The notes under the pieces: model-generated
Databases searched by the model: none
Told to the model about the DNA's origin: nothing
The model's input: only the letters and a program-made list of their open reading frames with translations
Assembly: GCF_040796495.1 (NCBI RefSeq)
Contig: NZ_JBFNQN010000002.1
Coordinates: forward strand, 248,001 to 312,000
Source of the DNA: Kineococcus endophyticus
GTDB lineage: Bacteria > Actinomycetota > Actinomycetes > Actinomycetales > Kineococcaceae
DNA: 64,000 bases
Reading direction: 5' to 3'
In this document: positions 36,252-59,652 of the stretch, piece after piece
How the letters are laid out: each line of letters starts with the position of its first letter
Position numbering within the stretch: the stretch's first letter is position 1
Program-made: the position numbers and the translations under genes

Positions 36252-37144
36252 CCCTCCTTCTCGCGCAGCAGCCGGAACTGGGCGGCCGTCACCAGACCGA
36301 TGACGACGACCAGGACGATCGAGAGCGCGGAGGCCGCACCGAGCTGGAGCTGGACGAAACCGCGCTGGTAGACGTACATGACGACCGTCTGTGTGTCCGT
36401 CCCCGGTCCGCCGCGGGTGAGGACGTAGAACTGGGTGAACGCGAGCAGCGAGCCGATGACGGAGATGACCAGGCTCATGGCGATGGTGCGGCGCAGCATG
36501 GGGATCGTGATGCTCCGCTCGCGCTGCCACCACGACGCGCCGTCCATCTCGGCCGACTCGTAGACGTCGCGCGGGATGCCCTGCATGCCACCCATGAGCA
36601 GCACCATCGTCAGCCCCGACACGGCCCAGACGATCATCACGCAGATGAGCCCCGTCGCGAGCGGCCCGTCGGCCAGCCAGGCCGTCGTCCCGTCGGTGAT
36701 CCCCAGCGTCTCCAGGACGACGTTGACCATGCCCGACCCGGGCTGCGCCTCCAGCACCATGAGGAAGCTCAGCGTCGTGAGCCCGATGACGTACGGGACG
36801 AAGAACACCGTCCGGAACACCGTGGAGAACCGCCGGTTGGCCCGGACCACGACGGCGAGGACGTAGCCGAGCACGAGGATCGGCACGGTCACGATCGCGG
36901 TGTACAGGACCGTGTAGCCCACCGACTTCCAGAACACGGGGTCCGACGCGATGGCCGCGTAGTTGCCGAGACCGATGAACTGGTAGGACCCGATGAGGGG
37001 CCAGTTGGTGAAGGACATGTAGACCGCGAAGACCAGCGGCACGAGCACGAAGACCGTGACGAAGGCGAGGGCCGGCAGCGTCAGGAGCAGACCGGTGCGC
37101 GGCGGGTGGGTGAGGGACCGGGGGTTTCTCTCGAGGGTGCTCAC
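36248..37144 (-). CDS. CUT1 sugar ABC transporter permease (MalF type)
   Basis: This 298-aa permease has six TM helices, the first at about residues 17-40 (GLLLTLPALAFVTVFVLVPL), the extracellular segment FIGLGNYAAIASDPVFW, and the EAA loop ESAEMDGASWWQRERSITIPML. GTG 37144 overlaps the binding-protein stop by 4 nt. It is a useful intact comparator for the fused permease at 44983-46548, which lacks the equivalent of its first ~60 residues. Confidence 0.9.
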   Translation of the reverse strand: MSTLERNPRSLTHPPRTGLLLTLPALAFVTVFVLVPLVFAVYMSFTNWPLIGSYQFIGLGNYAAIASDPVFWKSVGYTVLYTAIVTVPILVLGYVLAVVVRANRRFSTVFRTVFFVPYVIGLTTLSFLMVLEAQPGSGMVNVVLETLGITDGTTAWLADGPLATGLICVMIVWAVSGLTMVLLMGGMQGIPRDVYESAEMDGASWWQRERSITIPMLRRTIAMSLVISVIGSLLAFTQFYVLTRGGPGTDTQTVVMYVYQRGFVQLQLGAASALSIVLVVVIGLVTAAQFRLLREKEG

Positions 37145-42564: not shown

Positions 42565-43794
42565 GTGGCGTCCACGCAGCACGTCCTGGAGCTCGCCGGC
42601 CGCGAGGTGAGGATCACCAGCCCCGACAAGGTGGTCTTTCCGCAGACCGGGACGACGAAGCTCGACCTCGTCCGCTACTACCTGACGGTCGCCGACGGGG
42701 CGCTGCGCGGGGTGCGGGGGCGGCCCATGGTGCTCAAGCGCTTCGTCAAGGGCATCGAGGCCGAGGCGGTGTTCCAGAAGCGGGCCCCGGAGAAGCGGCC
42801 CGACTGGATCGAGGTCGCCGAACTCCACTACGCCCGCGGGACGTCGGCCGCCGAGACGGTCGTGCGGGACGAGGCCTCGCTCGCCTGGGTGCTCAACCTC
42901 AACTGCGTGGACCTCAACCCCCACCCCGTGCTGGCCGAGGACCTCGACCACCCGGTGGAACTGCGGATCGACCTCGACCCCCAGCCCGGGGTGGACTGGC
43001 ACCAGATCGTCGACGTCGCGTTCGTCGCCCGCGACGTGCTGGCCGACCACGGGCTCACCGCGTGGCCCAAGACGTCCGGTTCCCGGGGTTTCCACGTCTA
43101 CGCCCCCATCGACCCCGGCGTGTGGTCCTACCCGCAGGTGCGGCTCGCGGCCGAGACCGTGGCGCGCGAGGTGGAGAACCGCGCCGAGGGCCTGGCCACG
43201 AGCCGCTGGTGGAAGGAGGAACGCGGCGAAGGCGTGTTCGTCGACTTCAACCAGAACGCCAAGGACCGCACCGTCGCCTCGGCCTACTCGGTGCGCGCGC
43301 TGCCGGACGCCCGGGTCTCGACGCCCCTGACGTGGGACGAGGTGCGCGACGTGCGGCCCGAGGACCACACGGTCCTCACCGTCCCGCGGCGCTGGGCCGA
43401 ACTCGGCGGTGACCCGTGGGCGGGCATGGACGGGACCGGGGGTTCCCTGCAGGCGCTGCTCGACCTCGCCGAACGGCTCGGCCCGGCGGAGAAACCCCCG
43501 AAGGGCACCGGTTCGCGGACGAAGACCATGCCGCTCATCGAGGTCGCCCGGGCCCGGACGAAGCCCGAGGTCCTGGCCGGCCTGGAGTCGTGGAAGGCCA
43601 AGCACCCCGACGTCGTCCCGCTGCTGGCCGAGGCCGACGTGCTCGTGGACGGCATGCGCGGCAGCAGCTCCCTCTGGTACCGGGTGCGCGTCAACCTGCA
43701 GCACGTGCCCGAGGACCAGCGGCCGGAGCAGGCCGAGCTCGAGGTCGACTACGACCCGTGGGCCACGTACCGCGGACGCCAGCAGCGGCGCTGA
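42565..43794 (+). CDS. Stand-alone LigD-type DNA polymerase/primase domain (PolDom)
   Basis: This 409-aa archaeo-eukaryotic-primase-fold polymerase acts in bacterial non-homologous end joining. Catalytic Asp pair in LRIDLDPQPG, KTSGSRGFHVYAPI (nucleotide binding) and VFVDFNQNAKDRTVASAYSVR (third Asp). No ligase or phosphoesterase domain is fused or adjacent, so it must work with ligase/Ku encoded elsewhere. Residues after about 300 form a basic extension (PKGTGSRTKTM, TWRWKAKHPDVV-like). GTG 42565 lies 6 nt after TAGTCT, hence probably leaderless. Confidence 0.88.
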   Translation: MASTQHVLELAGREVRITSPDKVVFPQTGTTKLDLVRYYLTVADGALRGVRGRPMVLKRFVKGIEAEAVFQKRAPEKRPDWIEVAELHYARGTSAAETVVRDEASLAWVLNLNCVDLNPHPVLAEDLDHPVELRIDLDPQPGVDWHQIVDVAFVARDVLADHGLTAWPKTSGSRGFHVYAPIDPGVWSYPQVRLAAETVAREVENRAEGLATSRWWKEERGEGVFVDFNQNAKDRTVASAYSVRALPDARVSTPLTWDEVRDVRPEDHTVLTVPRRWAELGGDPWAGMDGTGGSLQALLDLAERLGPAEKPPKGTGSRTKTMPLIEVARARTKPEVLAGLESWKAKHPDVVPLLAEADVLVDGMRGSSSLWYRVRVNLQHVPEDQRPEQAELEVDYDPWATYRGRQQRR

Positions 43795-43797
43795 AGG

Positions 43798-44829
43798 TCA
43801 GGCCGTCCCGCGCGGGGTGAACACGTGCTCGACCCAGCGCGTCTGCGGTTCCCTTCCCGACGTCGGGTCCCTCAGTGCCCTCACCGCGAGGTCGACGGCC
43901 TGCCGCGCGACCTCGTGCCGGTCGACGGCCAGCGTCGTCAGCTGCGGGGTGACGAACGTGCCGAGCGACAGCCCGTCGATCCCCACCAGGCGGACGTCAC
44001 GGGGCAGCGAGACACCCTGCTCGACGAACGTGGCGAGCGCACCGACGGCGAGGATGTCGTTCCAGGCGAACACCGCGTCCGGCAACCCCCGGCGCAGCAG
44101 CCCGAGGGTGGCCTGCCGCGCCGTCTCGACGTCCTGCCCGCCGGCGTGCAGCACCTCGACGGCGATCCCGACGTGCCGCAACGAGGAGGCGATGGACTCA
44201 CCCCGTTCGTTGGTGCGGCCGGGGCGGTCGGCGTCGAGGACGACGGCGGTCCGCGTGCCGACGCCGGCCAGGTGCGCCGCCGCGTCGCGCAGGGCGGCCC
44301 GCGGGTCGAGGCGGACCGCGTGCGCCCCGGGAGCGCGCCCGTTCGGCGCCGGGTCGACGGTGACGACGGTCATGCCGCTGAGCGCGTCGGCCCACACCTC
44401 GCTCGGGCCGAGGTACCCCAGCACGGCGTCGACCTGGCTGGCGAGGTCGACGAGCAACCGCTGCTGGTCCGTCGCGTAGGCGGTGTCCACGAGCACGACG
44501 TTCCAGCCCAGCTCCCCCGCGTACCGGACGGTGGCCGCGGCGAACTCGGGGTAGTACGGGTTGGCCAGGTCGGACACGACGAGGCCGAGGGTGTCGTGCG
44601 TCGCCCGGGCCAGGCCGCGACCGAACCGCGAGGGCCGGTAGTTCAGCTCCTTGGCGGCCGCGAGCACCCTCGCCTTCGTCGCGGCGCTGATGCCCTCCAT
44701 GTCGTTCATGGCCCGCGTCACCGTCTGGCGCGACACGCTCGCGGCGGTGGCGACGTCCTCGATGGTCGCAGCGCTGCGCCGCGCTCGACGGACCCTCTCC
44801 TCGACGCGTTCGCCCTGGTCAGCCGTCAC
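43798..44829 (-). CDS. LacI-family transcriptional regulator (CebR-like context)
   Basis: This 343-aa LacI regulator has HTH TIEDVATAASVSRQTVTRAMND, hinge RPSRFGRGLARATHDTLGLVVSDLANPYYPEF split here, and a sugar-sensing C-terminal domain. It is divergent from the ABC import operon at 44983. The operator-like CCGTGAGC/GCTCACGG lies inside the 17-nt spacer of its own promoter. That site is close to the CebR cellobiose operator of Streptomyces (TGGGAGCGCTCCCA), so a beta-glucoside or other oligosaccharide may be the inducer. GTG 44829 gives the full HTH. Confidence 0.88.
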   Translation of the reverse strand: MTADQGERVEERVRRARRSAATIEDVATAASVSRQTVTRAMNDMEGISAATKARVLAAAKELNYRPSRFGRGLARATHDTLGLVVSDLANPYYPEFAAATVRYAGELGWNVVLVDTAYATDQQRLLVDLASQVDAVLGYLGPSEVWADALSGMTVVTVDPAPNGRAPGAHAVRLDPRAALRDAAAHLAGVGTRTAVVLDADRPGRTNERGESIASSLRHVGIAVEVLHAGGQDVETARQATLGLLRRGLPDAVFAWNDILAVGALATFVEQGVSLPRDVRLVGIDGLSLGTFVTPQLTTLAVDRHEVARQAVDLAVRALRDPTSGREPQTRWVEHVFTPRGTA

Positions 44830-44906
44830 ACGAACCCTCGCTCCCTGGTCTGGACACCCGGCACGCATCATCGCGCGCCTTGACAGCGTCCCTGGCCGGT
44901 GGCACC

Positions 44907-44935
44907 GTCCTACCACTCCGTGAGCGCTCACGGAA
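44907..44935 (-). promoter_or_regulatory. Promoter of LacI gene overlapping operator
   Basis: Minus strand TTCCGT (44935-44930), 17-nt spacer, TAGGAC (44912-44907). The spacer contains the operator palindrome, which would give autoregulation. On the plus strand TTGACA at 44880-44885 could be the -35 of the importer operon, but no good -10 follows at the right distance. Confidence 0.5.
44918..44933. promoter_or_regulatory. Perfect 16-bp LacI-type operator
   Basis: CCGTGAGCGCTCACGG is fully self-complementary. Its core GAGCGCTC equals that of Streptomyces CebR sites. It lies between the divergent LacI gene and the importer operon. Confidence 0.75.
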
Positions 44936-44982
44936 GCACGGCCGAAGATCTCGACGAAGAGAGTGGGCTGGTTGGATTGCAC

Positions 44983-46548
44983 GTGACGTCTCCCCCGCCG
45001 GGGGTCGCCTCCGGCCGTCCCCCCTCCCGCCGCGCGCTCCTGCGGGCCGGGTTGGCCGGGGCGGCCGGCATCCCCCTGACGGCCGCGCTGACCGGCTGCG
45101 GGTCGGGCACCTCGATCTCCAGCGACCCGGCCGAACTGGTCCTGTGGTACTGGAACCGGTCGATCGCCCCGAGCCTGCTGCAGAAGGCGGCCGAGCAGAT
45201 CCCCGGAACGTCCAAGCGCCTGCGCGCCGACGTCATCGGCGGCGCCTTCGACAGCAAGCTGCGCACGGGGTTCGCCGCGCGGGCCTACATCCCCGACCTC
45301 ACCGCCGTGAACTCCAACGCCGCGCTGTACTTCCCCACCGAGGACCAGTTCGTCAACCTGGACGACTACGGCGCCCAGGACTTCAAGGGCGACTACTACG
45401 ACTGGAAGTGGAATCTCGGACGCACCCCGAGCGGCCGCTTCCTCTTCTTCCCCATGGACACCGGCCCGACCGGGTTCTTCTACCGGACCGACCTGTTCGA
45501 GGCCGCGGGGATGCCGTCGCAGCCCGACGAGGTGTCGGCTGCGGTGCGGACGTGGGACGACTGGATCGCCTTCGGGAAGCAGCTGCGGGAGAGCAGCGAC
45601 GTCGCGCTCGCCGGCAACGCCGTCATGGTCTTCAACCAGTTCGTCAACGCCTCACCCGAGAGGTACTTCGACAAGGACGACAAGCCCCTCTTCCACGAGC
45701 CCGGTTCGGCGATCCGCGAGGCGTGGGACACCGCCGTCAAGGCCGTCCAGGCCAAGGTCACGCGCAACCTGCAGCAGTACGCCTACCTGCTCCAGGACTC
45801 GCGGTTCTGGAACGCCGTGTCGAACACGCTCATCATCTGGGTCATCTCCACGGTGCCGATGCTGTTCCTGGCCCTGGTCATGGCCTTCCTGCTGCACCAG
45901 AACATCCGGTTGAAGGGCTTCTACCGCGTCGCCTTCTTCATCCCCAACGTCACGAGCATGGTGGCGATGGCCATCGTCTTCGGCTCGGTGTTCTCCGACA
46001 GCTTCGGCATCGTCAACTCCGCGCTCACCGCGCTCGGGCTGCCCACCGTCGCGTGGCTGTCCACCGAGTGGGGCATCAAGATCACCATCGCCGTCATGGT
46101 CATCTGGCGGTGGACCGGCTACAACGCGATCCTCTACCTCGCGGCGCTGCAGGCCGTCCCGGACGAGCTGTACGACGCCGCCAAGGTGGACGGCGCCGGG
46201 TTCTGGCGGACCTTCTTCTCCGTGACCATCCCGATGCTGCGGCCGGTCATCCTGTTCACGGTCATCACCTCGACCATCGGCGGCCTGGGGCTCTTCACCG
46301 AACCGCAGATCCTCTTCGGTGCCGCCAACGGCAACGGCACCGTCGGTGGCGTCAACGAGGCCGGCATGACGATCGTGCTGTACCAGTACAACCAGTCGTT
46401 CTCCCAGCTCGACTTCGGGTACGGCTCGGCCATCGCGTGGGCGTTGTTCGCCCTCGCCGCCGTCTTCGCCATCATCAACTGGCGGCTGCTGCGGGACCGC
46501 GACGCGGTGCCGAAGAAGAGCCGCCGCACGAAGGAGGTGGCGCGGTGA
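44983..46548 (+). CDS. In-frame fusion of truncated sugar-binding lipoprotein and MalF-type permease
   Basis: This 521-aa protein joins two importer subunits. Residues 1-39 are a lipoprotein signal (SRRALLRAGLAGAAGIPLTA, lipobox LTGC, Cys39). Residues 40 to about 260 are the first lobe of a family 1 solute-binding protein (YWNRSIAPSLL, ADVIGGAFDSKL, PDLTAVNSNAALYF, MDTGPTGFFYRTDLFEAAG). At about residue 260 (DNA near 45765) the sequence passes without a break into a CUT1 permease at NLQQYAYLLQDSRFWNAV. Five TM helices and the EAA loop AAKVDGAGFWRTFFSVTIPML follow. About 170 C-terminal residues of the binding protein and about 60 N-terminal residues of the permease, including TM1, are missing. 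GTG 44983 is the chosen start. It is coupled to the MalG-type gene (GTGA overlap). Confidence 0.83.
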   Translation: MTSPPPGVASGRPPSRRALLRAGLAGAAGIPLTAALTGCGSGTSISSDPAELVLWYWNRSIAPSLLQKAAEQIPGTSKRLRADVIGGAFDSKLRTGFAARAYIPDLTAVNSNAALYFPTEDQFVNLDDYGAQDFKGDYYDWKWNLGRTPSGRFLFFPMDTGPTGFFYRTDLFEAAGMPSQPDEVSAAVRTWDDWIAFGKQLRESSDVALAGNAVMVFNQFVNASPERYFDKDDKPLFHEPGSAIREAWDTAVKAVQAKVTRNLQQYAYLLQDSRFWNAVSNTLIIWVISTVPMLFLALVMAFLLHQNIRLKGFYRVAFFIPNVTSMVAMAIVFGSVFSDSFGIVNSALTALGLPTVAWLSTEWGIKITIAVMVIWRWTGYNAILYLAALQAVPDELYDAAKVDGAGFWRTFFSVTIPMLRPVILFTVITSTIGGLGLFTEPQILFGAANGNGTVGGVNEAGMTIVLYQYNQSFSQLDFGYGSAIAWALFALAAVFAIINWRLLRDRDAVPKKSRRTKEVAR

Positions 46549-47444
46549 GCGCTCCGGAACTGACCCGCACGTCCCGCGGCCACCGCGACCGGCTGAGCGT
46601 CGTGAAGCCCCGGCGGAGCCGGCAGTGGGTCCTCGGCCGGGTCGTCACCCACGGCTGCATCCTCGTCGGCGTCGTCCTGTCGCTGTTCCCGTTCTACTGG
46701 CTGCTCGTCATGTCGACGAGCACGACGGCGCAGATCTTCGGCTACCCGCCCAACCTGCTGCCGAGCACGCACCTGCTGGAGAACCTGCGCAACGTCGTCG
46801 GCAACATCGACCTGCTGGGGGCGATGCTGAACTCGTTCATCGTCGCCGGCTCGCTGGCCGTCCTGGTCGTGCTGCTGGACTCCCTGGCGGCGTTCGCCTT
46901 CGCGAAGTACAAGTTCCCCGGCCGGGACGTCCTCTTCGCCGTCCTGCTGATCACGTTCCTCGTCCCGGGCAACCTGTCCCTCGTCCCGAGCTTCGTCCTC
47001 ATGTCCGAGCTGGGGTGGATGGGGCAGCTGCAGGCCCTCATCGTCCCGGGCGCCGCCAACGCGTTCGGCATCTTCCTGCTCCGCCAGTTCGCGCAGGCGT
47101 CCATCCCCGACGAGCTCATCGAGTCCGCCACCCTCGACGGCGCGGGGTTCTTCCGCACCTGGTGGTCGATCGCGATCCCCATGCTGCGCGGCGGTCTGGC
47201 GTTCCTCGGCATCTTCACGTTCGTGACGGCCTGGAACGACTACATCTGGCCGCTGGTCGTGCTCGTGGACCCCGGGCGCCAGACGCTGCAGACCGCGCTG
47301 GCGCAGCTGAACTCGGTCTACACGACCGACTACGGGATGATCATGGCCGGCGCCGTCGTCAGCGTCGTCCCGCTCATCGGGATCTTCCTCATCGGCTCCC
47401 GGCACTTCATCGCCAACATCGCCGCCGGAGCGCTCAAGGGCTGA
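46545..47444 (+). CDS. CUT1 sugar ABC transporter permease (MalG type)
   Basis: This 299-aa permease has six TM helices, the extracytoplasmic segment TTAQIFGYPPNLLPSTHLLENLRNVV split here, and the EAA loop ESATLDGAGFFRTWWSIAIPML. GTG 46545 overlaps the fused gene's stop and AAGGAGGTGG precedes it, an excellent ribosome site. It would pair with the fused permease; no ATPase is encoded nearby. The gene itself looks intact, in contrast to its partner. Confidence 0.9.
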   Translation: MSAPELTRTSRGHRDRLSVVKPRRSRQWVLGRVVTHGCILVGVVLSLFPFYWLLVMSTSTTAQIFGYPPNLLPSTHLLENLRNVVGNIDLLGAMLNSFIVAGSLAVLVVLLDSLAAFAFAKYKFPGRDVLFAVLLITFLVPGNLSLVPSFVLMSELGWMGQLQALIVPGAANAFGIFLLRQFAQASIPDELIESATLDGAGFFRTWWSIAIPMLRGGLAFLGIFTFVTAWNDYIWPLVVLVDPGRQTLQTALAQLNSVYTTDYGMIMAGAVVSVVPLIGIFLIGSRHFIANIAAGALKG

Positions 47445-59520: not shown

Positions 59521-59652
59521 CGCCGCCTCCTCGCGGTCGAGCGTCCTGTGGACCTGCTGAGCCTGGCACAGGCGCGGTGGGTGGGCGCGGACGCACGCCG
59601 GACCGGACGCGCACGCACGGAGGGGGGCCGCATCCGTGGCAGGATCCTCCGC

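Follow-up and report, generated by a model that had tools for sequence, protein, structure and literature searches.

A 2019 study by Licht et al. is said, going by its title, to have characterised the structure and function of MalE-MalF, a fusion of MalF with a single solute-binding domain; the organism is reportedly a Bdellovibrio. The locus described here, in a 64,000-nucleotide stretch of the Kineococcus endophyticus genome (the window) at 248001-312000 of contig C2, resembles MalE-MalF in carrying a solute-binding protein (SBP) and a CUT1-type permease in one polypeptide. It differs in what was joined: whereas MalE-MalF has a binding domain fused to MalF, the window frame keeps ~60% of the SBP and TM1 of the permease is gone. 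The surrounding gene order is that of the CebE/CebFG CUT1 operon of Actinomycetota, with an SBP gene followed by two permease genes, a divergent regulator and a GAGCGCTC palindrome, which we take to resemble a CebR box. Compared with CebE, however, the window SBP is cut before the position of Phe282 and fused to a permease.

GlnP of GlnPQ, a one-chain amino-acid importer with the domain order SBD1-SBD2-TMD as outlined in PMC8025302, also has its extracytoplasmic binding domains ahead of the membrane domain in the chain, but according to that outline its binding domains are complete and, as an amino-acid transporter, it belongs to another family. A different kind of precedent is the short-repeat deletion, in which one repeat copy and the DNA between the copies are lost, as at this locus, which differs only in its lucky in-frame outcome. 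More broadly, illegitimate recombination has been linked to large rearrangements in Streptomyces (PMC5124664). We propose that the fused frame is probably the product of a private, recent in-frame deletion of ~740 bp.

Results

One open frame joins part of an SBP to part of a permease

The fused frame and its parts are listed below by position in the window, with residues numbered as in G005, a genome of the same genus.

44983-46548, + strand: fused frame, 521 aa, consisting of the SBP up to G005 residue 266 and the permease from residue 70
44983-45774, + strand: SBP remnant, CebE-like, with 87% identity to the G005 SBP
45768-46548, + strand: permease remnant with TM1 absent, G005 residue 70 to the end, with 95-96% identity to the G005 permease
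45768-45774, + strand: junction word CCTGCAG, a 7-bp microhomology, found at both deletion ends in G005

The frame starts with GTG at 44983 and closes with TGA at 46548, with no stop across the 521 codons. Pfam SBP_bac_1 covers residues 87-259, ending at position 202 of the 307 in the profile, and BPD_transp_1 covers residues 294-498 (57.9 bits against a cut-off of 26.4). Read by eye, the SBP remnant starts with SRRALLR, followed by LTGC at Cys39; we take the first to be a twin-arginine-like motif and the second a lipobox, which together would make a lipoprotein-type N-terminus. The permease remnant contains the loop sequence AAKVDGAGFWRTFFSVTIPMLRP, presumably the EAA-like cytoplasmic loop of a CUT1 permease.

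Neither part is complete by the standard of its class. The permease remnant has the BPD_transp_1 core of a CUT1 permease but lacks the complete TM set: hydropathy showed no counterpart of the hydrophobic segment at residues 38-56 of the G005 permease, while the later segments are there, which bears out the loss of TM1 proposed by an earlier, sequence-only reading of this DNA. Likewise, the SBP remnant does not have the full two-lobed fold with three hinge crossings of a CUT1 SBP. The same reading had placed the switch from SBP to CUT1 permease near residue 260 and the losses at ~170 SBP and ~60 permease residues; the switch is indeed there, at Leu263 (45769) within CCTGCAG, and measured against G005 the losses come to 174 (residues 267-440) and 69 residues (1-69), respectively.

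Close relatives carry the SBP and permease genes intact

The genome comparison covered 59 genomes, including the window's own, 11 of which belong to the genus. Among the matches listed, close orthologues of the operon within the genus were found in G001, G002 and G005, while the permease part had matches of at most 55% identity in the seven other genus genomes. Alignment with homologous SBP-permease pairs gave two separate, complete genes in both G005 and G001, the closest two relatives in which the operon is kept. At the orthologous place in G005 (locus L039), the SBP of 440 aa and the permease of 328 aa are complete and separate, and in G001 (L040, a single-contig genome) the SBP of 445 aa is complete, with the permease gene separate. 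The SBP stop and the permease start overlap as TGATG in both genomes, and the sequence-only reading was mistaken in one respect here, since the two relatives have no sequence between these genes that could have been lost.

Among the matches listed, close orthologues of the operon occur in four of the 11 genus genomes, the window's own included, so the operon is probably dispensable in the genus. We also noted that at the other, intact importer pair of the window, G005 has 137 extra bases at the SBP/permease border relative to window positions 37138-37139, while the G001 alignment runs unbroken through this point.

The junction coincides with a 7-bp word found at both ends of the missing DNA

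The window is collinear with G005 and G001 on either side of the junction, with identities in the flanks of 85-90% and 78-84%, respectively, and with 737 bp (G005) or 752 bp (G001) absent, which agrees with the roughly 0.7-0.9 kb that had been estimated for a deletion. The flanking alignments to G005 overlap by the 7 bp of CCTGCAG. In this undeleted relative the word is thus found at both ends of the missing stretch, with one copy left at the join, as in a microhomology deletion; the permease-side copy in G001 has one mismatch. Microhomology of at least 7 bases was seen for 0.13% of random breakpoint pairs in G005 (200,000 draws) and for 0.33% of in-frame breakpoint pairs (a separate 200,000 draws), with both the microhomology and the breakpoint odds being those of the relatives and not of the ancestor. 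An in-frame outcome, expected in about one of three cases, carries little weight.

The window was aligned to stretches of ~100 kb (G001) and ~80 kb (G005), and blocks of more than 200 bases were considered. The junction was the only block boundary with 0 unaligned window bases against both relatives at which both have extra DNA, the distance between the alignment blocks being 736 and 730 bases in the two relatives.

Elsewhere, the comparison with G001 and G005 revealed many larger gains and losses. At 59536-59635, the two relatives have gene-sized stretches of 938 and 854 bases versus 98 and 74 unaligned bases in the window, and there is no clean join. This may be a second site where the window lost DNA, or one where the relatives gained it, and the loss at the junction may not be the only one in the window.

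Could the join have been made in the computer or the library? Both genes would then be intact in the strain, with the two ends having been misjoined during assembly, either through chimeric reads or by closing a gap on a short overlap. The assembly is a 5.04-Mb draft in 46 contigs, the join occurs in only one of the four operon-bearing genomes of the genus, and the remnants are free of decay (see below), all of which such an error would fit. However, at 7 bp in G005, and with a mismatch in G001, the word common to both ends is much shorter than usual assembly word sizes. The window contains no N, and both sides match one orthologous operon, so the join does not pass through a paralogue. No other contig yielded the missing stretch either, though it could have been dropped in a simple misassembly. 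The PstI site CTGCAG within the junction word makes a cut-and-religate artefact conceivable; this hexamer is nevertheless frequent (44 in the window) and is thus a weak clue. Taken together, we consider an artefact unlikely.

Two further candidates were rejected. The first, a collapse through a long repeat, does not agree with the short word at the two ends, 7 bp in G005. The second, another copy of the missing piece in the same genome, was looked for with two queries: the relative's stretch matched the two flanks of the locus and gave five diverged matches at 67-74% identity and two of 28-33 bases, and the missing SBP tail matched three paralogues at 31-37% identity. Apart from the flanks and the two 28-33-base matches, these are diverged paralogues (on C6, on C7 and at 36.9-37.1 kb of the window).

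Operon surroundings and a possible route to the proposed deletion

The neighbouring features are as follows.

42565-43794, + strand: LigD polymerase-domain-like protein, 207.9 bits against the TIGR02778 cut-off of 214.7, just under it
43798-44982, - strand: divergent regulator frame, open, aligned with frames in L039 and L040
44919-44932, no strand assigned: palindrome CGTGAGCGCTCACG, operator-like, upstream of the fused gene
46545-47444, + strand: second CUT1 permease, open, with Pfam BPD_transp_1

The regulator frame is presumably LacI-family-like, and its true start is likely the ATG at ~44871, judging by comparison with the G001 frame. The palindrome CGTGAGCGCTCACG is also found upstream of the operon in G005, G001 and G002 (L039, L040 and L041), and the genome contains a single occurrence of a 20-base string that overlaps the palindrome, whose putative role is that of an operator. 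The earlier description of the operator and the downstream permease as intact holds for both, the palindrome being common to all four genomes and the second permease frame being open with its BPD_transp_1 domain. The LigD polymerase-like gene precedes the fused gene by ~1.2 kb, and a Ku gene is present in the genome. A similar LigD-like frame adjoins the regulator in G001 (L040).

The two CCTGCAG copies were most likely rejoined by microhomology, following a break or through slippage; the host Ku and the LigD-polymerase-like protein could take part. End joining at microhomology and replication slippage would both give the same join. Such a deletion would have cost the SBP gene its final 174 codons and the permease gene next to it its initial 69, in a CUT1 sugar-importer operon of three genes. 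With the frame left open, translation into the overlapping second permease gene would be uninterrupted.

The same fusion is absent from the other loci examined

We also examined 59 relative loci, 54 from a scan of genome contigs and five from individual genomes. Both parts were found in 55 of these (52 after removing duplicates, three pairs of loci being the same DNA), all with 692-1346 extra bp between the parts compared with the window; one part was absent in the remaining four (L087, L088, L090 and L095). The two parts are in different frames in 48 of the 55 loci and in the same frame in seven; six of the seven are interrupted by one or more stops, located between the parts or inside them. 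The sequence-only reading had suggested looking for the fusion in other strains. No truncating SBP-permease fusion was detected in the 55 loci with both parts or in the three other operon-bearing genomes of the genus.

L068 (Curtobacterium flaccumfaciens, complete genome), which has the same operon, was considered as a fusion and rejected. Its open read-through is full-length, but over the end of the SBP and the beginning of the permease the encoded residues are unrelated, and the read-through probably reflects frame errors in the record.

A junction query of 131 residues, with the junction at residue 64, was also run against 394 class genomes, including the window's own, and was matched in 214. 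Among the matches listed, only that of the window covers residues 1-131. A match in G022 spans query residues 10-66, on the SBP side, and stops at the junction, while the other listed matches lie on the permease side, with starts of at least residue 53 and thus at most 11 residues past the junction. In the literature on fused importers, a truncated-SBP fusion was not evident among the titles and abstract openings listed.

Both remnants show purifying selection

Using three-way counts, we obtained a dN of 0.046 and a dS of 0.202 for the SBP remnant on the window branch (dN/dS ~0.23), and a dN of 0.013 and a dS of 0.248 for the permease remnant (dN/dS ~0.05). On the G005 branch, the corresponding values were 0.036/0.180 (~0.20) for the SBP part and 0.014/0.067 (~0.21) for the permease part. 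Both remnants are therefore under purifying selection on the window branch, with no clear relaxation or decay. Since decay is not seen, three readings are left: an event very late on the branch, an artefactual join, or a product still under selection; the prior odds and the lost fold favour the first over the other two. The selection signal mostly reflects the time before the deletion, which, unless the join is an assembly error, should be very recent and could date from the strain or the culture.

The chimera is predicted to have lost sugar binding

The chimeric product would carry a twin-arginine-like signal on a polytopic membrane protein, which would be an unusual and doubtful export route. 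NCBIfam gave no match for the intact G005 SBP and none above the cut-off for the G005 permease. Among solved structures, 8bfy (E 9e-44) comes closest in sequence to the intact G005 SBP; it is CebE of Streptomyces scabiei (PMC10714786). The model described there comprises residues 62-454 after 33 unmodelled residues, with domain 1 formed by 62-176 and 330-386, domain 2 by 177-329 and 387-454, and hinges at 176-177, 329-330 (G329-N330) and 386-387 (A386-K387); the sugar is contacted by Phe282 and by Trp303, which stacks on it (PMC10714786). CebE numbering corresponds to the 8bfy chain number + 28, such that chain residues 253, 254 and 275 (Q, F and W; hand-counted) are Q281, F282 and W303.

Aligned to 8bfy, the window SBP ends at the position of CebE Gln281, just before Phe282. 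It thus lacks Phe282, Trp303, the second and third hinges and the later portions of the two domains. Because two of three hinges, the later domain parts and the stacking Trp are missing, sugar binding should be gone in the chimera. Nor should the chimera make a normal permease subunit, and the importer would most likely be inactive.

Against this stands the reading of the frame as a natural, working one-piece importer subunit, in which the lipoprotein front replaces TM1 with the topology kept, serving in docking or tethering, while another SBP delivers the sugar. The two parts are in frame with no stop, the topology is formally compatible by hydropathy, both parts show purifying selection, and intact SBP-permease fusions exist elsewhere (MalE-MalF and GlnP). 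What remains is only half an SBP, however, with two of the three hinges, later domain parts and the stacking Trp gone; the export route would be unusual; and none of the relatives examined shows the fusion. The permease chain, then, does not hold a complete binding domain, and the fusion is not kept across related genomes. We regard a natural subunit as very improbable. Still harder to credit is a chimera that is expressed, inserted and kept as a working or regulatory subunit, with a lipid-anchored half-SBP in place of TM1 and sugar supplied by, for example, the C6 paralogue.

Discussion

A deletion scar is well supported because relatives carry the genes intact, the length of the missing DNA matches, a microhomology lies at the join and no fusion is found in other loci. 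What speaks against a deletion is that the open frame and the conserved halves would also fit a working fusion. Of the three options set out from the sequence alone, the deletion scar fares best and the working fused subunit finds no support, while an assembly collapse through a repeat is unlikely with a word of 7 bp. A working fusion, if true, would be a variant of the known one-chain SBP-permease design.

The finding matters little beyond the strain, but it explains an odd 521-aa SBP-permease annotation as a deletion, and it cautions against inferring a novel importer design from a single draft genome. If the join is real, it illustrates clearly how a chimeric frame can arise when a short-repeat deletion spanning two overlapping genes stays in frame, and the strain is predicted to have lost one CUT1 oligosaccharide importer.
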